NCBI GenBank assembly: GCA_029821495.1
Contig: JALGTG010000024.1
Location: 1-33,788, forward strand
Length of the DNA: 33,788 nucleotides
Direction of reading: 5' to 3'
DNA from: Candidatus Hebobacteria bacterium
GTDB lineage: Bacteria; Armatimonadota; Hebobacteria; Hebobacterales; Hebobacteraceae
Shown here: piece by piece, positions 2,753-15,632 of the stretch
How the letters are laid out: each line of letters starts with the position of its first letter
How positions within the stretch are numbered: the first letter of the stretch is position 1
Notes under the pieces: model-generated
Database searches by the model: none
What the model was told of the DNA's origin: nothing
The model's input: the letters and a program-made list of their open reading frames with translations, nothing else
Position numbers and translations under genes: made by a program

Positions 2753-2903
2753 GAGTCGTTGGGGGCGGCTGTGGGGGGATGCAGCGAGCGCGATGGGGGG
2801 CCGGGGATGGGGGCAGGAAAAGCGTTGTGAGGCAGTACTAGAGAGAAGGTGAGGGGCATGGCGGTGACGAAGGGGGGAGCGAGTTACGGAGGGCCCTCGC
2901 GGA

Positions 2904-2933
2904 TTGACTTCGGGCCCTGCGGCGTGCTAGGAT
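2904..2933 (+). promoter_or_regulatory. Putative promoter of the membrane operon
   Basis: TTGACT (2904-2909) - 18 nt - TAGGAT (2928-2933), 50 nt upstream of ATG 2984. Confidence 0.45.
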
Positions 2934-2983
2934 GGCCGGCGATGAGGCCCAGTGAGAACTGCCTAAGCGGGAGGCGACGTGAT

Positions 2984-5900
2984 ATGAGAGCGGGACGAGG
3001 GTGCGGACTGCACGGCGGGGGAGAGTCCGGGTGTCGCGCAGCGGCACCGCTCAGCAGACTCCTGCTCGTAGCATTGGCCGGCGCGCTCGTGGGGTTGATG
3101 AGCGCGCCGTCTTCGTTTGCGATACTGGGGAAGAAGGAGCCGACCGCGGAGCAGCAGGAGTGGTGGCCCAAGTTTGCGGGTGAGGTGGACATAGAGAATC
3201 TGGAGAAGCACGTCACGCGGATGAGCGATTTCAGTCCGCGTCTGGCGGGATATCCGGGGTCGGAGCTTGCCGCGCAGTACATCGTGGACCAGATCGAGGG
3301 GATGGGGGTGGCGGATGCGAGCAAGCAGGAGATCACGGAGGATGCGCTGGGTCCGAAGCTGCCCTATAGGGAGAGCTACTGGGTGACGGTGCCGTGGGTG
3401 CACGGGCAGCCGACGCTGGAGGTGCTGGATGGCGGGGAGGTGGTGGACAGCTATGATGTGTACCCGCTATGGCCGAACCTGGTGCGGACATCGCAGCTTC
3501 CGGAGGGTGGGAAGGAGTTCCGGCTGATAGACGGGGAGGACGGGAAGCTGGCGCGGTTCAACGGCCTGGACGTGGTGGGGACGGCGGTTCTGATGGACTT
3601 CAACAGCGGGTCGAACTGGCTGAACGCGCCGCGGCTTGGGGCGGAGGCCCTGGTGTTCGTGGAGCCGGAGACGACGACGCGGGGGGAGGCGGAGACGAAG
3701 TTCCTGCGGATTCCGATCAACATTCCACGATTCTGGGTGAGCCGGCGCGACGCGTATCACCTGCAAGCGCGGCTGAAGTCGGAGCCGGAGGTGCAGATCA
3801 GGCTGAAGTGCAAGATGACGTGGGAGCGGAAGCCTGCGTGGAACGTGGTGGCGGAGATACCGGGCACGGATGAGAAGCTGAAGGAGCAGACGGTCTACCT
3901 GACGGCTTACTATGACTCGATGTCGGTGGTGCCGCAGCTTTCGCCTGGTGCGGAGAGCGCGTCGGGGGCGGCGGCGCTGCTGGAGCTGACGCGAGTTCTG
4001 AAGAAGTACCCGCCGAAGCGGACGGTGCGGGTGGTGTTCAACGGGGCGCACTTCCTGGGGCTGGCCGGGGTGCGTAACTTCGTGGCGACGCATCTGGACG
4101 AGTTGACGGAGGGGACGCGGGTAGATAAGCCTGCGAAGTTCCTGGGACTGATACCTTACACGAAGACCGTCAGGGAGAAGATGAACGTTAATCTATTCCT
4201 GGCGGTTGATTTCTCGACGCAGAACGACAAGGTGGGCGTGTTCTACAAGGGGATGTTCTACGATCAGCGCGAGGACACGGATATCAGCCGGCATTTCTCG
4301 GACTTCGCGCGGACGCTGAGAGAGAACGCGACGCTGATGGGGTACTGGGGGACGAACCATGCGTCGTTTGCGGATGGGGTGAATCCGATCTACGGGAAGC
4401 CGTGGCGGACGTTCATCTTCGGGAAGATCGCGCTGGACAACGAGCCGATTACACTGGGAGGAGGCAGAGGGGCGGCCTTCGTGACGACGGACGATGCGCG
4501 GCCTCGGGTAGACACGCCGTTCGACACAGTTGAGTGGGTGAACTTCCAGAACCTGACGCGACAGACGCAGTTTCTGGCGGCGACGATGTGGGACATTGTG
4601 ACGGACCCGAAGATGCCGGTGGACAAGGAGCCGTCGTTCCACCGGATGTCGGTGACGGGGGGGTTCGCGGAGCTATCGGCGCGGGCGCTGGCGTTCGATC
4701 CGACTCGGAGCATTGTGGCGGACAAGGTGATTGACGGGACGATGGTGGTCGCGCGGATGTCGGACTCGACGCTGATGGGGACGCGCGGGGACCTGGTGGA
4801 GATCGTGGACTCGGAGGGGCGATCGCACTTCTGGGGTTATCCGACGATCAATGCTTACGGCTGGCGGAAGCCGAGCTACATCGAGGCGTATCACACGGAC
4901 CCGAAGACCGGCCATATAGACTATGCGCCGGACCGGGGGCCGATGGGGAACCGGAACCACCCTCGGGATCCGACGGAGTTCTTCATCACGTCTGGGAAGA
5001 AGGACTTCACAATAGTCGTGTTCGAGTGCGTACCGATCGCGATGTACGACCTGGTGGACCCGCAGAGCTTGACGACGCTGAGGTACATCAAGGTCTACGA
5101 CGGGCTGACGGATGCGGAGCCGCGGCGGTATGGGTTGACGGTGCCGCACCCCGAGCCGTGGCGGGGCCACGTGGAGGATGTGGCGCTGGTATTTGCGGAC
5201 AAGACGCCGGAGAACCCAGCGCGAGTGAAGGTGATGATGGGGCTGGGGGCGGGCTCGGTGCGGATGTTGCTGCTGGATGCTTCGACGGTCAGCGAGAAGA
5301 ACCCGCAGGGGCTGGGATACCTTGCGGATAAGCCGTTTGCGCTGCCGCACACGCCGCTGCGCGTGACGGAGGATATGTGGGCGCTGGACGAGATGCGGAT
5401 GCAGAAGCTGGCCGGCTTCCGGATCGTTAACGATATTGTGTGGAAGCATCACGCCAAGGCGAAGGAGCTGCTGGAGGAGGCGAAGGCGGCGCTGGCTGCA
5501 CGGGACTATAGGCTGACGGATGCGAAAGCGCGTGCGGCGTGGGGGTATGAGGCGCGGGCTTATCCGGCGGTGCTGTCGACGATGAACGATGTGGTGAAGG
5601 GGGTGCTGTTCTACCTGGCGCTGATGCTGCCGTTCGCGTTCTTCGTGGAGCGGTTGGTGTTTGCGTTTCCGAACTTGCGGCTGCAGATTGTGGGGTTCGT
5701 GGCGATCTTCGCTGCGATCTGCCTGGTGTTCAGCTTCATCCACCCGGCGTTTGAGATCACGACCAACCCGTGGATCGTGCCGCTTGCGTTTATCATGGTG
5801 GCGCTGAGCGTGCTGGTGATCGCGCTGGTGACGATGAAGTTCGAGGACCAGCTCAAGAAGATGCAGATGCAGGTGTCGGGCGTGCACCGCGCGGACATCG

Positions 5901-7732
5901 GGCGGATGAGCGTGGCGGCGGCGGCGTTCTCGCTGGGGATCAGCAACATGCGTAAGCGGCGCGCGCGGACGGTGTTCACGTGCCTTACGCTGGTGCTTCT
6001 GACGTTCACGGTGCTGTCGTTCACATCGGTGAAGACGGGGACGAAGTACAACGAGCGGCGGGCGAAGGGGAAGCCGGCGTATCAGGGGCTGCTGGTGCGG
6101 AACGCGATGTGGGAGCCGCTGGAAGAGTCGGCCTACCGGGTGTTGAACGACGAGTTTGGGCGAGAGCGCGCGGTGGCACCGCGGGCGTGGTTCTTCACAT
6201 CGAAGACTGAGGAGCAGTCGTTCATCCAGATCAGCACGGATGCGACCGATACGAAGTACGATGCGCGGGCGGTGACGGGGCTGAGCCCGGCGGAGAAGGA
6301 GGTGACCGGGCTGGGGAAGGGGGCGACGCTGAGGGCGGGGCGGTGGTTCGAGCCGGGGGATGTGCATGTGGCGATAATCCCGACGGGAATGGCGGAGGAG
6401 TTCCACATTGAGCCGGAGGATGTGGGGAAGGTAAAGATCTTCCTCGGTGGGGTGCCACACGATCTAATCGGGATCCTGGATGCGAGCCATGCGAAGCGTG
6501 CGGTGGATCTGGACCAGGAGCCGCTAACGCCGGTGGACTGGATACAGATGCAGAGGATGTCGCGGCAAGGAGGTGGGGGCGGCGGAGGGCAGCAGGGCCA
6601 GAGGACAGGTTTCCAGGAGTATCTGCACTTGTCGCCGGACCAGGTGGTGTTCATCCCGTTCGAGACGGCGCTGAACCTGGGTGCGGAAGTGGAGTCGGTG
6701 GCGGTGAGCTTCGGGCAAACGAAGCCGGGGGAGGCGGTGGACGCGGCGTTGGCGGCGGAAGTAGAGAAGCAGGCGCAGGAGGTAAGGGAGACGCTGTGGG
6801 GGCTGATGCCGCGGCTTGGGTTCAACCTGTACGCGGGGACGGGAGATGAGATTCGGAAGTGGAGTGCGATCGGGCGGACGTCGATCATCGGGATGGGAGA
6901 CGTGCTGATCCCGATTCTGATCGCGGCGCTGATCGTGTTGAATACGATGCTTGGTGCGGTCTACGAGCGGGTGCGGGAGATCCACATCTTCAGCTCGATC
7001 GGGCTGGCGCCGAGTCACATTGGGATGCTGTTCCTGGCGGAATCTTTCGTGTATGCGATTCTGGGGGCGATCTTTGGGTATCTGATCGGGCAAGGGACTG
7101 CGAAGCTGATCACAGTGTTCGACATACTGCCCGGTCTCTACCTGAACTACTCGTCGGTGGCGGCGGTGGCTTCGACGACGGTGGTGATCGGGGTGGTGAT
7201 GCTCTCGACGCTGTATCCGGCGCGGAAGGCGTCGGAGGTGGCGACGCCGGCGATCGAGCGGAGCTGGCAGCTGCCGGATGCGGTGGGGGATAGCTGGGAC
7301 ATACCGCTGCCGTTTGCTGTTACGGGCGATCAGGCGATAGCGCTGTCGCACTTCATGATGGAGTGGTTCCAGGCGTACGAGGAGTACTCGGTCGGGGACT
7401 TCGTGACGCAGGATGTGAAGTCGTGGGAGGAGCCGAGCGAGCACGGGACTTCGTATATCATCGAGCTGATGGCGTGGCTGGCTCCGTTCGACTTGGGGGT
7501 GAGCCAGAAGGTGCAGCTTCGGACCGTTCCGACGGACATGGAGGATGTGTTCGAGATAATGATGCACCTGGAGCGGGTGAGCGGGGACGTTTCGTCGTGG
7601 CAGCGTGTGAATCGACGGTTCCTGAATACGCTTCGGAAGCAGTTCCTGATCTGGCGAACGCTGAGGTCTGAGGAACGGGATCGGTACCTGAGTCTGAGCG
7701 CGGCGCCGGGGACGGCCGAGGCGGCTTCGTAG
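2984..7732 (+). CDS. Giant membrane protein: signal anchor + degenerate M28 peptidase-like domain + FtsX/MacB-type permease + C-terminal unknown domain
   Basis: ORF 2849-7732; ATG 2984 preferred (GGGAGG upstream, downstream of putative promoter, followed by hydrophobic LSRLLLVALAGALVGLMSAPSSFA). M28-like core VYLTAYYDS...PGAESASGAAALLELTRVL...RTVRVVFNGAHFLGLAGVRNFV. TM block FYLALMLPFAFFVERLVFAF..., then permease segments RRARTVFTCLTLVLLTFTVLSFTSVKTG and GMGDVLIPILIAALIVLNTMLGAVYERVREIHIFSSIGLAPSHIGMLFLAES...STLYPARKASEVAT. Confidence 0.85.
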   Translation: MRAGRGCGLHGGGESGCRAAAPLSRLLLVALAGALVGLMSAPSSFAILGKKEPTAEQQEWWPKFAGEVDIENLEKHVTRMSDFSPRLAGYPGSELAAQYIVDQIEGMGVADASKQEITEDALGPKLPYRESYWVTVPWVHGQPTLEVLDGGEVVDSYDVYPLWPNLVRTSQLPEGGKEFRLIDGEDGKLARFNGLDVVGTAVLMDFNSGSNWLNAPRLGAEALVFVEPETTTRGEAETKFLRIPINIPRFWVSRRDAYHLQARLKSEPEVQIRLKCKMTWERKPAWNVVAEIPGTDEKLKEQTVYLTAYYDSMSVVPQLSPGAESASGAAALLELTRVLKKYPPKRTVRVVFNGAHFLGLAGVRNFVATHLDELTEGTRVDKPAKFLGLIPYTKTVREKMNVNLFLAVDFSTQNDKVGVFYKGMFYDQREDTDISRHFSDFARTLRENATLMGYWGTNHASFADGVNPIYGKPWRTFIFGKIALDNEPITLGGGRGAAFVTTDDARPRVDTPFDTVEWVNFQNLTRQTQFLAATMWDIVTDPKMPVDKEPSFHRMSVTGGFAELSARALAFDPTRSIVADKVIDGTMVVARMSDSTLMGTRGDLVEIVDSEGRSHFWGYPTINAYGWRKPSYIEAYHTDPKTGHIDYAPDRGPMGNRNHPRDPTEFFITSGKKDFTIVVFECVPIAMYDLVDPQSLTTLRYIKVYDGLTDAEPRRYGLTVPHPEPWRGHVEDVALVFADKTPENPARVKVMMGLGAGSVRMLLLDASTVSEKNPQGLGYLADKPFALPHTPLRVTEDMWALDEMRMQKLAGFRIVNDIVWKHHAKAKELLEEAKAALAARDYRLTDAKARAAWGYEARAYPAVLSTMNDVVKGVLFYLALMLPFAFFVERLVFAFPNLRLQIVGFVAIFAAICLVFSFIHPAFEITTNPWIVPLAFIMVALSVLVIALVTMKFEDQLKKMQMQVSGVHRADIGRMSVAAAAFSLGISNMRKRRARTVFTCLTLVLLTFTVLSFTSVKTGTKYNERRAKGKPAYQGLLVRNAMWEPLEESAYRVLNDEFGRERAVAPRAWFFTSKTEEQSFIQISTDATDTKYDARAVTGLSPAEKEVTGLGKGATLRAGRWFEPGDVHVAIIPTGMAEEFHIEPEDVGKVKIFLGGVPHDLIGILDASHAKRAVDLDQEPLTPVDWIQMQRMSRQGGGGGGGQQGQRTGFQEYLHLSPDQVVFIPFETALNLGAEVESVAVSFGQTKPGEAVDAALAAEVEKQAQEVRETLWGLMPRLGFNLYAGTGDEIRKWSAIGRTSIIGMGDVLIPILIAALIVLNTMLGAVYERVREIHIFSSIGLAPSHIGMLFLAESFVYAILGAIFGYLIGQGTAKLITVFDILPGLYLNYSSVAAVASTTVVIGVVMLSTLYPARKASEVATPAIERSWQLPDAVGDSWDIPLPFAVTGDQAIALSHFMMEWFQAYEEYSVGDFVTQDVKSWEEPSEHGTSYIIELMAWLAPFDLGVSQKVQLRTVPTDMEDVFEIMMHLERVSGDVSSWQRVNRRFLNTLRKQFLIWRTLRSEERDRYLSLSAAPGTAEAAS

Positions 7733-7777: not shown

Positions 7778-9853
7778 GTGACCAGGTTGGCTGAAGAACT
7801 GGAGCGGGGCGAGGAAAAGCGGGACGAAGAGCAAGTAGACATAGCCAACTTCTACCTGGAGCGCAGGCCGGAACTGGAGCCCACGGAGTTCCGGGACGGC
7901 TTCACGTTGAAGACGGTGCTGGGGGTGTTGTTCGTCGCGATTCTGATGATGCCCGGGGCCATCTACCTTGGCCTGCTGGTCGGGCAGAACCTGGGGCCGG
8001 CGGGGCAGTGGACGACGATTATTCTGTTCACTGAGGTGTGCCGCCGATCGTTCACGGTGCTGACCCGACAAGAGCTGTACATGATCTACTACATGGCGGG
8101 CTCAATCAACAGCATGATGGGTGGATTGATGCTCGCCGGGGGCGCGTTCGCGTGGCTGATCTGGGCGCAGTATGTGGTAAACTCGCCGGCGGCGACGAGC
8201 TTCGGGATCGCCAACGATATTCCGACGTGGTACGCGCCGGCGCTTGGCTCAGAGGTGTATGTGAAGCGGACGTTCGTCCACAAGGACTGGCTGGTCCCGA
8301 TCCTACTCACGCTCACTACCACGGTGCTGGGTCGGATGCAGTGGGTGGGACTGGGGTACTTCCTGTTCCGGACGACGTCGGATGTGGAGCGGCTGCCATT
8401 CCCCATGGCGCCGATTGCGGCACAGGGAGCGACGGCGCTGGCGGAGGCCTCGGAGGAGTCGGAGTCGTGGCGCTGGGCGGTGTTCAGCGTGGGGACGATG
8501 ATCGGACTGGTGTACGGATTCTTCTACGTGGCGATCCCGGTGATCACAAGCGGATTCCTGGCGGATCCGCTGTCGCTGATACCGATACCCTTCATTGATC
8601 TGATGCGCAACACGGAGGACGTGCTGCCTGCCGGCAGGTTCGCCATCGGGACGGATCTGGGGCCGATCATGTGGGGCTTCGTGGTGCCATTCCCGATCGT
8701 GGCAGGGACATTCATCGGGTCTATGCTGTGTAACTTCGGACTCGCCCCGATGTTGTACCGGTTCTCGTACGATCCGGAAACGAGCAAGTCAGCCATATTC
8801 CCGACTTGGTCGAAGGGGATGAGCCTGATCCAGAGCGAGATGACGCTGAACTTCGACTTGTTCATGAGCATCGGGATCGGGATCGCGCTGGCGATCGCGG
8901 TGGTAGGGATTCACACGGTGGTGGCGACGATGCTGAAGGCGCGCGTGGATCGAGCGCGGGGGGGCGTGCAACGGGGCTATGGCGACATACCGGAGGGAAG
9001 AGGGGACTTCCCGATCTGGATAGCGCTGGCGGCGTGGTCGTTCTCGACGCTGTGCTATGTGCTGTTGGCGCATGCGCTGGTGCCGCGGTTCCCGTTGTTG
9101 TTCCTGGTGGGATTCGCCTTCCTTTGGACGCCGCTGATCTCGTACATGTCGGCCCGGATGATGGGGTTTGTGGGTCAGCCGCTGCAGATTCCGTATGTGG
9201 CGCAGGCGACGTTTATACTGAGCGGGTACAAGGGCATCGATATCTGGTTTGCGCCGATGCCGATCTTCGACAATGGGTGGGCGGCGCAGATGTTCCGAGA
9301 GGTGGAGCTGACCGGGACGAAGATGATCTCGGTGGTGAAGGCGGAGGCGCTGCTGCTGGTGGTGATGCTGGTGTTCAGCTTCACCTACTGGTCGTTCTTC
9401 TGGCGGTCGAGCCAGATACCGTCGTCGCAGTACCCGTATGCGCAGACGTTCTGGCCGTTGAATGCGTTCTATCAGTGTTTGTGGGCGACGGCGACTGACC
9501 CGAATGCCACGGATCGGCCGACGTTCTTGATAGAGGCACTGAAGTTCCCGGTGATCGGGTACTCGGGCGCGGGGATGCTGGCAGTGTACTTGGCGTTTGT
9601 GGCGTTCAAGATCCCGGCGCTATGGTTCTACGGGTTCGCCTACGGGGTGACGCAGTCGACGTGGATATGTACGCCGATGTTCATCGGGGCGATGCTGGGG
9701 CGCTACTACTTCTCGCGGCGGTTTGGAGCGGACCGTTGGAGGCGCTACGCCCCGGTGCTGGCGGCTGGATACACGTGCGGGGTGGGGTTGATCGGGATGG
9801 TGTCGATCGGCTTGACGATCATCTTCAAGGCGGTTAGGTCGCTGCCTTTCTAG
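7778..9853 (+). CDS. Polytopic membrane protein, oligopeptide-transporter (OPT)-superfamily-like
   Basis: 691 aa, many hydrophobic segments; FTLKTVLGVLFVAILMMPGAIYLGLLVGQNLGP, VERLPFPMAPIAAQGATALAEASEE and GQPLQIPYVAQATFILSGYKGIDIWFAPMPIFD resemble OPT-like architecture. GTG start at 7778 (TTG 7787 possible). Confidence 0.6.
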   Translation: MTRLAEELERGEEKRDEEQVDIANFYLERRPELEPTEFRDGFTLKTVLGVLFVAILMMPGAIYLGLLVGQNLGPAGQWTTIILFTEVCRRSFTVLTRQELYMIYYMAGSINSMMGGLMLAGGAFAWLIWAQYVVNSPAATSFGIANDIPTWYAPALGSEVYVKRTFVHKDWLVPILLTLTTTVLGRMQWVGLGYFLFRTTSDVERLPFPMAPIAAQGATALAEASEESESWRWAVFSVGTMIGLVYGFFYVAIPVITSGFLADPLSLIPIPFIDLMRNTEDVLPAGRFAIGTDLGPIMWGFVVPFPIVAGTFIGSMLCNFGLAPMLYRFSYDPETSKSAIFPTWSKGMSLIQSEMTLNFDLFMSIGIGIALAIAVVGIHTVVATMLKARVDRARGGVQRGYGDIPEGRGDFPIWIALAAWSFSTLCYVLLAHALVPRFPLLFLVGFAFLWTPLISYMSARMMGFVGQPLQIPYVAQATFILSGYKGIDIWFAPMPIFDNGWAAQMFREVELTGTKMISVVKAEALLLVVMLVFSFTYWSFFWRSSQIPSSQYPYAQTFWPLNAFYQCLWATATDPNATDRPTFLIEALKFPVIGYSGAGMLAVYLAFVAFKIPALWFYGFAYGVTQSTWICTPMFIGAMLGRYYFSRRFGADRWRRYAPVLAAGYTCGVGLIGMVSIGLTIIFKAVRSLPF

Positions 9854-9875: not shown

Positions 9876-10811
9876 TTGAGTGAGGAGAGAGGCTGGACAC
9901 TGATCGGGTGGCGGGGGATGTCGGTCCGGGTTCCGGAGGAGTGGACGCTCGGAGCGGTGGGGGGCGATAAGAAGTCGGGGTATCTGAGGGTGGATGACGA
10001 GACGATGCCGCGGGTGCAGGTGAAGTGGTCGCGGGGACACATCAACCTGGAGAAGAAGAGAGACGAGTACATCAAGCGGCTGACGAAGAGGGGCAGGTTC
10101 AGGAGGCGGGCGACTGGCCTGCAGGTGACCACGGACGCGCGCGTGGTGAGCAGGCGATCGAAGCCGAAGAAGGAGCTGGTGGGATATGGGTGGCGGGGGC
10201 CGCAGTGCGGGATGGGGGTGCTGTGGAACTGCGAGGTGTGCGACCGGGCGGTGATTGCGCAGGTGAGCTGGGCGCCGAAGGAGGAGGGAAGAGAGCTTGC
10301 TACGGCGGTGCTGGAATCGCTGGAGGATCATGGGACGGAGGGTTGGCAGGTGTGGGGGATGGACGGGCTTGCGTTTCTGGCGCCGGAGGAGTATGAGCTT
10401 GGGGGATGGCGGCGGATGACGCGGTATCTGGAGGTGAGTCTGGCGAAGGATGCGGCGAGTCTGAAGGTGGCGCGGTGGGGTATGGTGCCGCTGGTGCTGG
10501 AGGGGAGGCCGGTGAAGGACTGGTGGGAGGAGGAGAACAGGCGGCGGCGGGATGTGCGGTGGAGCGCGGAGGAGGAGGAGGTGAAGGGTCACGAGGGGGT
10601 GAGGGCATGGGGAGAGCGGCGGCGGCTGGGAGGGAGGCTGAGGCGGGTGGCAGCGCGGGCGGTGAGGCGGGAGGCGGTGGACCAGTTTGAGGCGTATGCG
10701 TGGCACTGCCCGGAGTCGAACCGGCTGTACATGGTTGAGAGCGTGCACGGGAGGGGCGGGGAGATGGCGCGAGGTGTTGTGGATTCTGTCTCGTGCCACG
10801 AGGAAGAGTGA
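9876..10811 (+). CDS. Conserved-looking hypothetical protein, 311 aa
   Basis: TTG start; WTLIGWRGMSVRVPEEWTLGAVGGDKKSGYLRVDDETMPRVQVKW...; contains CEVC pair; tight spacing with neighbours in operon. Confidence 0.65.
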   Translation: MSEERGWTLIGWRGMSVRVPEEWTLGAVGGDKKSGYLRVDDETMPRVQVKWSRGHINLEKKRDEYIKRLTKRGRFRRRATGLQVTTDARVVSRRSKPKKELVGYGWRGPQCGMGVLWNCEVCDRAVIAQVSWAPKEEGRELATAVLESLEDHGTEGWQVWGMDGLAFLAPEEYELGGWRRMTRYLEVSLAKDAASLKVARWGMVPLVLEGRPVKDWWEEENRRRRDVRWSAEEEEVKGHEGVRAWGERRRLGGRLRRVAARAVRREAVDQFEAYAWHCPESNRLYMVESVHGRGGEMARGVVDSVSCHEEE

Positions 10812-10814
10812 GAG

Positions 10815-11264
10815 ATGAGACTTCGGCGAAGGCCGCGGCTGACGCCGGAGCAGGTGCTTGCGTCGCGGCCGCTGCGAAATCCGGGATTGAGGGAGGAGTC
10901 GGTAGAGGGCGGTGGGGTACGGCTGTTCGTGGAGCGGCGGGGGGAATGGTGGGCGAGGGTGTTGTCGATGGTGTTCCCGATTCCGCGGGAGCGGATCGTG
11001 GAGCTGGACGGAGTGGGGGGGGAGGTGTGGAAGCTGTGCGACGGGGAGAAGACGCTGCGGGAGATGACGCGGGCTCTTCAGGAGCGGCACAAGCTGACGC
11101 GTGCGGAGGCGGAGTGGTCGCTGCGGACATACTTGAGGGATCTGGGGAAGCGAGGGCTGGTGGGGTTCGTGGTGGAGAAGTCGGGCCGGCCTGGTGAGGA
11201 GTCGGTAGGGGTGACTGAGTCCGGGGGCGAGGGCGAAAGCAGGAGAGGGAGAAGAGGCGCATGA
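10815..11264 (+). CDS. PqqD-like protein (RRE-type winged helix)
   Basis: ERIVELDGVGGEVWKLCDGEKTLREMTRALQERHKLTRAEAEWSLRTYLRDLGKRGLVGFV matches PqqD-family pattern (G..VW.LCDG..T..E....L......E.....L..L...GL). Overlaps next gene start (ATGA). Confidence 0.75.
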   Translation: MRLRRRPRLTPEQVLASRPLRNPGLREESVEGGGVRLFVERRGEWWARVLSMVFPIPRERIVELDGVGGEVWKLCDGEKTLREMTRALQERHKLTRAEAEWSLRTYLRDLGKRGLVGFVVEKSGRPGEESVGVTESGGEGESRRGRRGA

Positions 11265-11944
11265 CAAGCGTGCTCGATGAGGTGTCGAAGAGAGGTATCG
11301 AGAAGCAGATTGTATTGCCGTGGTCGCGCGCGCTGCAGATGACGCGGGAGAACATCTTCGTTCGTCTGGGGCGATCGGCCATCACGGCATTAGGGATCTT
11401 CCTGGGGATAGCATTCCTGGCGGCAGTGCTGTTCTCTGCGGCGGCTGCGCAGGTTGCGGCGGAGAAGCAGATGAGGGAGATCGGGGTGGACGCGGCGGAT
11501 GCCCAGACGCAGGCCAGAGTAATCTGGCTGGCAGCGATGTCGCTGCTTGTGGCGACGGTGGGCATCGTGAACTCGATGCTGATGTCGGTGACGGAGAGGT
11601 ACAAAGAAATAGGGACGATGAAGTGCCTGGGGGCGCTGGACAGCTTCATCGTGCGGCTGTTCTTGCTGGAGGCGGGGCTGCTGGGGATTCTGGGGTCGAT
11701 GCTGGGGGCGATTGCGGGGACCGGGGTGATGACTTTGGTGTCGGCGCATAGGCTGGGATGGAGCCTAGCGCTGTCGAGCTGGGGGAAGCCGGCGCTGGAG
11801 CTGGGGGGATGGACGGTGCCGCTGTGGTTAGGTATCGTGATAGCGATTGTGATCGGGGGAGTGCTGTCAGTTGGCGCGGCGCTCTATCCGGCGTGGAGGG
11901 CTGCGAAGATGCCGCCGGCGGCGGCGCTTCGATCAGAGTTCTAA
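11261..11944 (+). CDS. Minimal FtsX/MacB-type ABC permease (no periplasmic domain)
   Basis: RLGRSAITALGIFLGIAFLAAVLF...LLVATVGIVNSMLMSVTERYKEIGTMKCLGALDSFIVRLFLLEAGLLGILGSMLGAIAG...GGVLSVGAALYPAWRAAKMPPAAALR. Confidence 0.88.
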   Translation: MTSVLDEVSKRGIEKQIVLPWSRALQMTRENIFVRLGRSAITALGIFLGIAFLAAVLFSAAAAQVAAEKQMREIGVDAADAQTQARVIWLAAMSLLVATVGIVNSMLMSVTERYKEIGTMKCLGALDSFIVRLFLLEAGLLGILGSMLGAIAGTGVMTLVSAHRLGWSLALSSWGKPALELGGWTVPLWLGIVIAIVIGGVLSVGAALYPAWRAAKMPPAAALRSEF

Positions 11945-11974: not shown

Positions 11975-12715
11975 ATGTCCGTCTATGAGTACATCGTCAG
12001 AACGAAGGATCTGTCGAAAGTCTACACGATGGGGGATGTCCAGGTACGAGCGCTGGATGACGTAGCGCTGGACATACGGCGGGGTGAGTATGTGTCGATC
12101 ATGGGGCCGTCGGGGTCGGGGAAGTCCACGCTGTTCAACATGATCGGAGGGCTGGACAAGCCGACACAGGGAACGGTGTTCATCGACGAGGTGGACATGG
12201 CACAGCTCACGGCGCAGGAGCTGGCGTTCCTGAGATGCCGGAAGATCGGGTATATCTTCCAGACCTTCAACCTGATACCGGTGATGACGGCGCTGGAGAA
12301 CGTGACGCTGCCGATGGTGTTCGCGGGGCTGACGACGGATGATGCAATGGACAAGGGGGCGGAGTTGCTGAAGACGGTGGGGCTGGAGGGCCGGCGCGAC
12401 CACAAGCCGACGGAGCTGTCCGGAGGCCAGCAGCAGCGAGTGGCCACTGCGCGAGCGTTGGCGAACGATCCGGCCATCATACTGGCGGATGAGCCTACGG
12501 GCAACCTCGATCTGCGCACGGGTAAGGAGATTATCGATCTCCTGAAGAGGATGAACGAGGAGAAGAAGGTGACGGTGATCTCGGCGACGCACGATCTGAA
12601 GATGATCGACGTGTCGGATCGGGTGGTGTGGATTCGGGACGGGCAGATCGAGCGGATCGAGGAGCGGGCCGACATCGAGGTGCAGGTGGGCCAGATGGAG
12701 GGCGAGGAGCACTAA
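11975..12715 (+). CDS. ABC transporter ATPase, LolD/MacB-type
   Basis: Walker [10 protein letters not shown], signature [15 protein letters not shown], Walker [14 protein letters not shown]-loop SATHD. Confidence 0.95.
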
Positions 12716-12885: not shown

Positions 12886-12948
12886 ATGCAGGCCGTTTGA
12901 GAGTGGTTGTAGGGAAAGCGAGTGTTCGGCCTCAATGGGGGAAAGACC

Positions 12949-13605
12949 ATGAAACGGCAGCGAGGGCAGCTCAACATAGTGCGGGGCTTTCTGACGTTTT
13001 CGCTGCTATTGCTGGTGCTGGCAATAGGATTCGTGGTGGGGCGGCTGATGGTCGCGCGGACGTACGCGGAGGCGGCTCCGGAGTTGGAGAGGCTGCCTGT
13101 GGCGGAGCCGGAGGTCGCGGCGAGGGCGGTAGAGGACCGGGTGGTGTTGCCTGGGTCGGTGTACGTACCCGCTCCGGCGCCTCCGGAGCAGGTTCCGGAG
13201 GAGGCAGTGGGGGGAGTGATCGGGGGGGAGGCGTCGGCTGAGGCGGAGGGCGAGGAAGGGCCGTCACAGGCAGCGGCAGACGGGCTCCGCGCGGCGGTGG
13301 AGGCGGAGCCGGAGGAGATAGAGGCGGGAGGGGTGGTGGCGCCGGTGATGCCGGCGGAGACCGCGGAACCGGGTCGGATCAGATACTCGATTCAGGTTGG
13401 CGTGTTCACAATGCGGGAGGGGGCGCGGCAGGTGGCGGAGGAGCTGTCGCGGGTGGGATACCCGGCACAGATCGAGGTGACGACTGCTGAGGATCAGTCG
13501 CTGTACCGGGTGCTGACGGGCCGTTACTACACGGAGTACGCGGCACGGAAGGCGCTGTCGGAGCTCGAGAAGGAAGGGTACTCGGGCTTCCTGGTCAAGC
13601 GGTGA
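12949..13605 (+). CDS. Membrane-anchored SPOR-domain protein
   Basis: N-terminal TM FLTFSLLLLVLAIGFVVGRLMV; acidic/Pro-rich linker; C-terminal RYSIQVGVFTMREGARQVAEELSRVGYPAQIEVTTAEDQSLYRVLTGRYYTEYAARKALSELEKEGYSGFLVKR. ATG 12949 preferred over GTG 12922. Confidence 0.88.
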   Translation: MKRQRGQLNIVRGFLTFSLLLLVLAIGFVVGRLMVARTYAEAAPELERLPVAEPEVAARAVEDRVVLPGSVYVPAPAPPEQVPEEAVGGVIGGEASAEAEGEEGPSQAAADGLRAAVEAEPEEIEAGGVVAPVMPAETAEPGRIRYSIQVGVFTMREGARQVAEELSRVGYPAQIEVTTAEDQSLYRVLTGRYYTEYAARKALSELEKEGYSGFLVKR

Positions 13606-13657
13606 GCGGGTCGCACGTGAGGAACCCCAAAGGGATTATTGTGGGAGTGGAGAGGCA

Positions 13658-14287
13658 GTGAAGGAGAAGCGCGAGGATAGGGCGCCGGAAGAAGATGTCT
13701 TGGATGGTCCGGAGACCGCGGGCGAGGAGGAGGTGCTCGCGGGGGAGGGGCTGGCGCCGGAAGAACGCGAGGAGGGGGAAGAGAAGGAGTCCGAGGCCGG
13801 GGTGCTCCGGAATGAGCTGGCCATGCTGGAGGACCAGCTTCAGGACATGCGGGACCGGTACGTTCGGGCGGTGGCCGATCTGGACAATGCGCGCAAGCGG
13901 GCGCGGCAGGCGATAGGGGATGCGCGAAGGCAAGCGGCGGCGGGAGTTCTGCTGGAGCTGGTGGCGCTGGTGGATGATTTCGAGCGTGCGCTGGAGACGA
14001 TGCGGCCGGGAGCGGGGGCTTCGCAGGAGATGCTTGCGGCCTATGAGGGTGTCGAGCTGATCTACCGGCGGTTGATGACGCTGCTGGAGAGGCGCGGGGT
14101 GAAGGTGATCGAGGCGGTGGGGCAGCCGTTCGATCCCGGGAAGCACGAGGCGGTGGCGCAGATCCCGGCGACGGACGAGCAGAAGGACGGGACGGTGGCG
14201 CTGGAGATGGCAAAGGGCTATATGTATGGGAGTGAGGTGCTGAGGCACAGCCGAGTGGGAGTTGCGGTGCACGAGCGCGAGAAGTAG
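13658..14287 (+). CDS. grpE: GrpE nucleotide exchange factor
   Basis: RYVRAVADLDNARKRARQA...LLELVALVDDFERALE...GVELIYRRLMTLLERRGVKVIEAVGQPFDPGKHEAVAQIP...GYMYGSEVLRHSRVGVA. Confidence 0.92.
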   Translation: MKEKREDRAPEEDVLDGPETAGEEEVLAGEGLAPEEREEGEEKESEAGVLRNELAMLEDQLQDMRDRYVRAVADLDNARKRARQAIGDARRQAAAGVLLELVALVDDFERALETMRPGAGASQEMLAAYEGVELIYRRLMTLLERRGVKVIEAVGQPFDPGKHEAVAQIPATDEQKDGTVALEMAKGYMYGSEVLRHSRVGVAVHEREK

Positions 14288-14414
14288 GGCGCGGGGCAGG
14301 CGAGACGCGGAAGTGTAGGGCGTAAGAGGTGGGCTGGATTGGGCGGCGAAGAAGTGCGGGAACTTGTCTGGTACGCCGTGAATCATTCAGAGATGAGATG
14401 AGAGAGGTCTAGCT

Positions 14415-15632
14415 GTGGCATCGCCGAAGCGCAGGAGAAGGAAGTCGGGCGGGACGGAGGAGGGGGAAGCGAGAGCTACTGAGGGCACGCGGGAGGAAGA
14501 GGCGGCGGAGCCGTCGGGCGAGGAACAAATGGAGGCGGGGGGAGAGACGGTGAGCGCCCCCATGCCGACAGAGGGAGAGACTCCCATGTCGAGTAGCGAG
14601 GCACCGGGTACGGCAGTGATACGTGTGATCGGTGTGGGAGGGGGCGGGAGCAACGCGATAGACCGGATGATCGAGGTGGGGCTGCAGGGGGTGGAGTTCA
14701 TCGCCGCGAACACGGACGTGCAAGCGCTGTCTCGGTCGCGTGCGGCAATGAAGCTGCAGCTTGGGGCGCAGGTAACGAGCGGTCTGGGCGCGGGCGGGGA
14801 TCCGGAGATTGGTGCGCGTGCGGCGGAGGAGAGTCGAGCGGAGGTAAAGGAGAGCATCGAAGGCGCGGACATGGTGTTCATCACGGCCGGCATGGGGGGC
14901 GGGACGGGCAGTGGGGGCGCGCCGATGATTGCTGAGGTGAGCCGGGAGACGGGGGCGCTGACGGTGGCGGTGGTGACGAAGCCATTTGCGTTCGAGCGAG
15001 GGCGGCGACAGAGCATTGCAGAGGAGGGACTGGACAATCTTCGGACGAAGGTTGACACGCTGATAACGGTGCCGAACGACCGTCTGCTCGGGGTGGTGCA
15101 GAAGAAGGTGACGCTGCTGGAGGCGTTTCGGCTGGCGGACGAGGTGCTGCGGGAGGGGGTGCAGGGGATCTCGGACCTGATCACGATTCCCGGACTGATC
15201 AACCTGGACTTCGCCGACGTGAAGGCCGTGATGCAGGATGCGGGCTCGGCGCTGATGGGGATCGGCACGGGCACGGGAGAGACGAGAGCGGCAGACGCGG
15301 CGCAGGCATCGATCTCGAGCCCGCTGCTGGAGACTTCGATAGATGGGGCGACGCGGGTGCTGTTCAACGTGACGGGTGGGAGCGACCTGTCGCTGTCGGA
15401 GGTCGAGGAGGCGGCGCAGGTGATTCGCGCGGCCTCGGATTCGCCGGATACGAACGTGCTGTTCGGGGTGGTGATAGGGGACGAGCCGGCGGAGGAGGTG
15501 CGGATCACGGTGCTGGCGACGGGGTTCGGCCGGCGGCAGGCGCGGCCGCGGGAGACGGATGCCGGCATACCGGCGGTAGAGCCGATGCCGGAGACGGACC
15601 TGGAGGTGCCGACGTTCATACGAAATCGCTGA
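14415..15632 (+). CDS. ftsZ: Cell division protein FtsZ
   Basis: [42 protein letters not shown] tubulin signature, [12 protein letters not shown]-terminal peptide [10 protein letters not shown]. Start could be internal (ATG 14586). Confidence 0.95.

Follow-up and report, generated by a model that had tools for sequence, protein, structure and literature searches.

The window analysed here (33,788 nucleotides, the whole stretch of contig JALGTG010000024.1 from a Candidatus Hebobacteria bacterium, phylum Armatimonadota) carries an operon headed by P0001, which encodes a large ABC permease with an ectodomain related to M28 peptidases. The genes of the operon are as follows, with coordinates given in the window:

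2849–7732, + strand: P0001, pseudo-M28/FtsX fusion ABC permease (1627 aa as listed)
7778–9853, + strand: P0002, OPT-like transporter (PF03169, 24.7 bits against a cut-off of 25.8)
9876–10811, + strand: conserved protein of about 311 aa, apparently made of two similar halves
10815–11264, + strand: PqqD-like protein (PF05402, 44.4 bits)
11261–11944, + strand: minimal FtsX-type permease (FtsX2), without a large extracytoplasmic domain (PF02687, 69.2 bits)
11975–12715, + strand: ABC ATPase of the LolD/MacB/FtsE type (NCBIfam, Pfam)

Sequence searches yielded no match for P0002 in the PDB and none for the 311 aa protein in Pfam or NCBIfam. The ATPase, encoded in the same operon as P0001, has LolD as its best NCBIfam match, with 236.7 bits, below the equivalog cut-off of 307.75, so that the match defines its type and not orthology. 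Beyond the operon, genes for a SPOR-domain protein, a GrpE-like protein and an FtsZ-family protein occupy positions 12922–15632.

Translation of P0001 probably begins at one of two ATG codons, 2942 or 2984, because an in-frame stop precedes residue ~28 in the nearest homolog. The hydropathy profile displays a signal-like segment (residues 68–86), a long soluble stretch, three TM helices and then the FtsX core, which leads to the following layout:

2984–3121, + strand: signal-peptide-like N-terminus, the hydrophobic segment being followed by SSFA (inferred from hydropathy)
3146–5563, + strand: extracytoplasmic domain (aa 100–905), an M28 fold that contains an inserted lobe, then β-rich domains and a helical hairpin
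5591–5830, + strand: three TM helices predicted downstream of the ectodomain (aa ~915–994; hydropathy)
5969–7231, + strand: FtsX/MacB-type permease, with a TM helix at ~1041–1059, a second extracytoplasmic domain and TM helices at ~1346–1455 (Pfam, hydropathy)

Pfam assigns residues 332–415 to Peptidase_M28 (45.8 bits against a cut-off of 21.3) and residues 1355–1462 to the FtsX permease domain (PF02687, 51.1 bits). Among its sequence matches in the PDB are BSAP of Bacillus subtilis (E 5e-8) and an M28 protein from Shewanella (E 1.5e-5). The ectodomain (residues 100–905) was modeled by AlphaFold2 using 56 family members, with a mean pLDDT of 92 and a pTM of 0.91. Foldseek matched the model with M28 enzymes of the PA type (the aminopeptidases 2ek8, BSAP and 3iib, and GCPII) and with transferrin receptor 1 (TfR1), with an rmsd of ~7–12 Å over the whole chain, so that only the fold class is certain; the high rmsd indicates lobes arranged differently from those of the matched structures. 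By both sequence and fold, the ectodomain of P0001 is an M28 homologue. Residues 582–905, when modeled alone, gave a confident β-rich fold with a helical hairpin, for which the structure search returned weak β-sandwich matches at best.

To describe the former active site, we use the ligand naming established for the family (SGAP/BSAP), with a two-zinc set H, D, E, D, H. The register was fixed by a profile–profile alignment in which canonical M28 enzymes from within the phylum served as reference (probability 99.7, E 2e-25), and the two-zinc site is that given in outline in PMC3426542. The relevant positions are:

3908–3910, + strand: Tyr354, at the position of the first zinc His of HxD (translation, profile alignment)
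3914–3916, + strand: Asp356, the Asp of HxD, kept (alignment of relatives)
3944–3967, + strand: PGAESASG (P366 to G373, including E369), in place of the DDNASG-type motif (profile alignment)
4049–4054, + strand: His401 at the general-base Glu position and Phe402 at the zinc Glu position (profile alignment)
4208–4210, + strand: Asp454, at the zinc Asp position, kept (profile alignment)
4490–4525, + strand: DDARPRVDTPFD (aa 548–559), with Asp549, Arg551, Asp555 (zinc His position) and Asp559

The translation reads A353-Y354-Y355-D356-S357 and F397-N-G-A-H401-F402-L-G-L-A-G407 in the two key segments. The replacements put forward in the original prediction, of the zinc His by Tyr at 3908–3910 and of the Glu-Glu pair by His-Phe at 4049–4054, match this reading, and the profile–profile alignment agrees on the register, with the general-base Glu ahead of the zinc Glu being absent and His401 standing in its place. 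PGAESASG, which had been taken as the equivalent of DDNASG, is present as read and altered, and it turned out to be one residue shorter than the motif; Glu369 corresponds to the shifted ligand Asp or to its neighbour, the PDB sequence match and the profile–profile alignment placing it differently. Two points are added by the present analysis: the C-terminal zinc His motif YHTxxD reads VDTPFD, Asp555 replacing the His, and the zinc Asp is kept as Asp454. Altogether, the ligand set of P0001 is Y354, deleted or E369, F402, D454 and D555, with only D454 retained: the general base is altered, as are four of the five ligand positions, and the H, D, E, D, H set is absent. That the ectodomain lacks a canonical co-catalytic zinc site is well supported by these alignments, and P0001 would lie outside the active M28 peptidases, presumably being devoid of their activity.

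Homologs were gathered across the phylum and from a genome collection, whose contig scan covered 80 relatives, the best among at least 319; conservation was measured on 113 sequences that share less than 90% identity in the ectodomain. The relatives from the collection are mainly Armatimonadota, some being found in bins labelled Omnitrophota, Desantisbacteria and others, and the pseudo-M28/FtsX fusion is present in most Armatimonadota and in some bacteria of other phyla. The former zinc His and zinc Glu positions are variable: residue 354 is Y in 92 of the 113 relatives, F in 12 and H in 2, with N, W, P and S also observed, and residue 402 is F in 84, with H, Y, G, C and A elsewhere (conservation ranks within the ectodomain of 18% and 32%, respectively). 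His401 and Arg551 are invariant (113/113); Asp356 is present in all 112 relatives with a residue aligned there, Asp549 and Asp559 in 112 of 113 each, Asp555 in 111, and position 454 is D in 111 and E in 2. All these positions rank among the top 2–4% of ectodomain conservation. Position 369 is E or D in 110 of the 113 sequences; in another phylum, some members have T or S there. His401, Asp454 and Asp555 are probably clustered, because the residues homologous to them lie around the zinc ions.

The original prediction had proposed to look for these substitutions in homologs, and for homologs with canonical ligands. The same losses recur in the 113 non-redundant relatives and in other phyla, and the full canonical set was found in none of the 113 (despite His354 in two) nor in the sampled phyla, where the collection scan took in the 80 best relatives out of at least 319. 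The loss of the co-catalytic zinc site in the M28-fold ectodomain of an FtsX-type ABC permease is thus better supported than was claimed, since it is family-wide. In the phylum of locus L186, the pseudo-M28 family was found in 30 of the 35 genomes searched, and the loci fetched from it carry the same zinc-site substitutions. Standalone M28 enzymes of the same phylum, used as controls, mostly show the HxD, D[DN]xxSG and EE motifs in a check by simple regular expression that left some of them unmatched; such ordinary M28 enzymes are found alongside the fusion, in the phylum and in individual genomes. Besides His401, no His of the ectodomain is conserved at 90% or more, so that an alternative zinc site elsewhere in the ectodomain lacks support. 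Because the substitutions and the altered site are conserved family-wide, the sequences indicate that the zinc site was lost long ago and that a different residue set was fixed across the family; the invariant His401 and Arg551, together with the near-invariant Asp454, Asp549, Asp555 and Asp559, read as a mark of constraint, not of decay. This new residue set, like the OPT-like, PqqD-like and second FtsX partners, had no place in the original prediction. Sequencing error or chance is ruled out as the cause of the substitutions by their recurrence in the 113 relatives and other phyla. The plasmid collection searched contained no match. A divergent pseudo-M28 relative in the same class, L258 (G011:C330), displays YYDS and SGHAQSLEG in a 626 aa ORF.

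The partner genes were compared in 80 loci, gene orders being counted by hand. The six-gene order is identical in 28 of the 80 loci, and in 12 more the FtsX2–ATPase pair lies upstream and the OPT-like gene downstream of the pseudo-M28 gene. Altogether, the OPT-like gene is present in 58 of the 80 loci, and it lies directly downstream of the pseudo-M28 gene in other phyla as well. The ATPase and second FtsX genes lie away from the pseudo-M28 gene in some lineages (e.g. the Fimbriimonadaceae-type loci L084–L089); since the genes are not adjacent in all lineages, the pairing of P0001, FtsX2 and the ATPase as subunits is a presumed one. Across the phylum, the ABC/OPT operon also contains the PqqD-like protein, which is of the RiPP-recognition type, with no obvious modifying enzyme gene adjoining.

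Among 291 genomes of the phylum, 190 contain both the pseudo-M28 and the OPT-like gene, 87 contain neither and 14 are discordant (by hand count, eight with pseudo-M28 only and six with OPT-like only), which gives a Fisher p of ~1e-56, a statistic that ignores the relatedness of the genomes. Because the scoring of pseudo-M28 took in only two candidates per genome, a presence is more certain than an absence in this count. In a single genus, g22, nine genomes have both genes, 11 have neither and none is discordant; in the family of this genus the two genes are unlinked, lying for instance on contigs C6 and C4 in G123 and ~67 kb apart in G116. These data suggest that the two genes are jointly gained and lost and, therefore, that they have a joint function. 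The only consistent exception is family f33, in which G200, G201, G204, G205, G207 and G209 keep the OPT-like gene and pseudo-M28/FtsX was not found.

The best-known non-enzymatic M28 ectodomains are those of eukaryotic receptors. The transferrin receptor is a non-enzymatic M28B receptor (PMC9768917), and the nicastrin ectodomain, which resembles aminopeptidases and TfR, serves in substrate docking (PMC4326451). Like TfR1 and nicastrin, P0001 combines the M28 fold with a lost metal site on a membrane ectodomain; these two are single-pass eukaryotic proteins, whereas P0001 is a bacterial fusion with a type VII ABC permease. Compared to the inserted-lobe M28 aminopeptidases BSAP (6hc6), Aneurinibacillus 2ek8 and Shewanella 3iib, P0001 has the same fold and motif order and shares the HxD Asp, the zinc Asp and the TPxD Asp, but differs by the replacement of the general base and of four ligand positions out of five, and by its fusion to an ABC permease. 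As for the transport machinery, MacB, LolCDE, FtsEX and YbbAP–TesA also comprise an FtsX core, a LolD/MacB-like ATPase and large extracytoplasmic domains, YbbAP being moreover paired with a hydrolase; P0001 differs from them in its N-terminally fused pseudo-M28 domain, its three extra TM helices and its OPT-like and PqqD-like neighbours. An open-access literature search on M28–FtsX fusions returned nothing relevant.

We consider it likely, with a probability of about 0.65, that P0001 belongs to a type VII ABC complex that cooperates with the OPT-like transporter, and that its ectodomain is a pseudopeptidase serving as receptor or substrate gate. P0001 would be the large permease subunit of an FtsX/MacB/Lol-like complex and its ectodomain an M28 peptidase dead since ancient times, whose remodelled cleft (His401, Arg551, Asp454, Asp555, Asp549 and Glu/Asp369) would hold a ligand uncut, perhaps a peptide or an N-terminus. 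On binding ATP, the LolD-like ATPase, acting on P0001 and the minimal FtsX, would then drive a mechanical movement of the ectodomain, and ligand uptake or release would be achieved jointly by the complex and the OPT-like transporter. The binding of a substrate or peptide, already put forward in the original prediction, is plausible by analogy with TfR1 and nicastrin, and by the same analogy the ectodomain may bind its ligand without cleaving it. In type VII ABC systems, ATP moves extracytoplasmic domains, typically with an outside partner, by mechanotransmission (PMC12646458). For the P0001 complex, we infer mechanotransmission from these relatives (PMC12646458), and subunit assembly and the direction of transport are presumptive in the same way. 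A more specific proposal, which we regard as tentative, is that the zinc site was rebuilt into a conserved site (His401, Arg551, Asp454, Asp549 and Asp555) for a specific ligand or a non-peptidase reaction, in an ABC-driven device that feeds or gates the paired OPT-like transporter; if true, it would amount to an undescribed envelope transport system common to Armatimonadota and several other phyla.

If the domain were still an enzyme or a metal protein, the rebuilt site could hold a single metal on His401, Asp454, Asp555 and Glu369, or a His401–Asp catalytic pair acting on a different bond. In favour of this, His401 coincides exactly with the place of the general base, former ligand positions carry the all but invariant Asp454 and Asp555, Arg551 has come in as a further invariant residue, and the conservation of the new set, of the degree usual for catalytic residues, is typical of catalytic or ligand-binding sites. 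However, the zinc His and zinc Glu positions vary, position 369 does so in another phylum, and a sole well-conserved His makes a poor classic zinc site; we thus judge this reading improbable. Nor does the known single-zinc, M28-fold enzyme with an altered metal site, glutaminyl cyclase, offer a counterpart: it keeps the zinc Glu and the C-terminal zinc His, at the positions occupied by Phe402 and Asp555 in P0001.

Slightly less probable still is a purely structural role, as a scaffold or a dimer interface binding no small ligand. TfR-like proteins use the M28 fold for protein–protein contacts and TfR1 is among the best fold matches, but many of the most conserved ectodomain residues occupy old active-site positions, as expected for a function of the cleft. 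Finally, several ligands are missing together in the window protein, as would follow from local degeneration of a once-active peptidase domain in this lineage; this has next to no chance of being correct, as the losses are shared by all members sampled from the phylum and recur in other phyla, with strong conservation of the altered site; this family-wide conservation refutes it.

With the receptor or gating reading of P0001, a phylum-wide bacterial family of putatively dead peptidases becomes a new place to ask how a peptidase turns into a receptor, and the association of pseudo-M28, an FtsX-type permease and one co-occurring transporter draws attention to an unstudied envelope system in a phylum that has itself received little study. 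Annotated automatically from its Pfam match, P0001 would be called an 'M28 peptidase', which is probably wrong.

Upstream of P0001, positions 2688–2755 consist of two near-identical tandem copies of ~34 bp (GAGCCATTGCTGTATCGACAGGGG..ACTACTGAGGGAG); the first copy holds the end and stop codon of the upstream ORF, so that this gene seems to have a duplicated 3' end.
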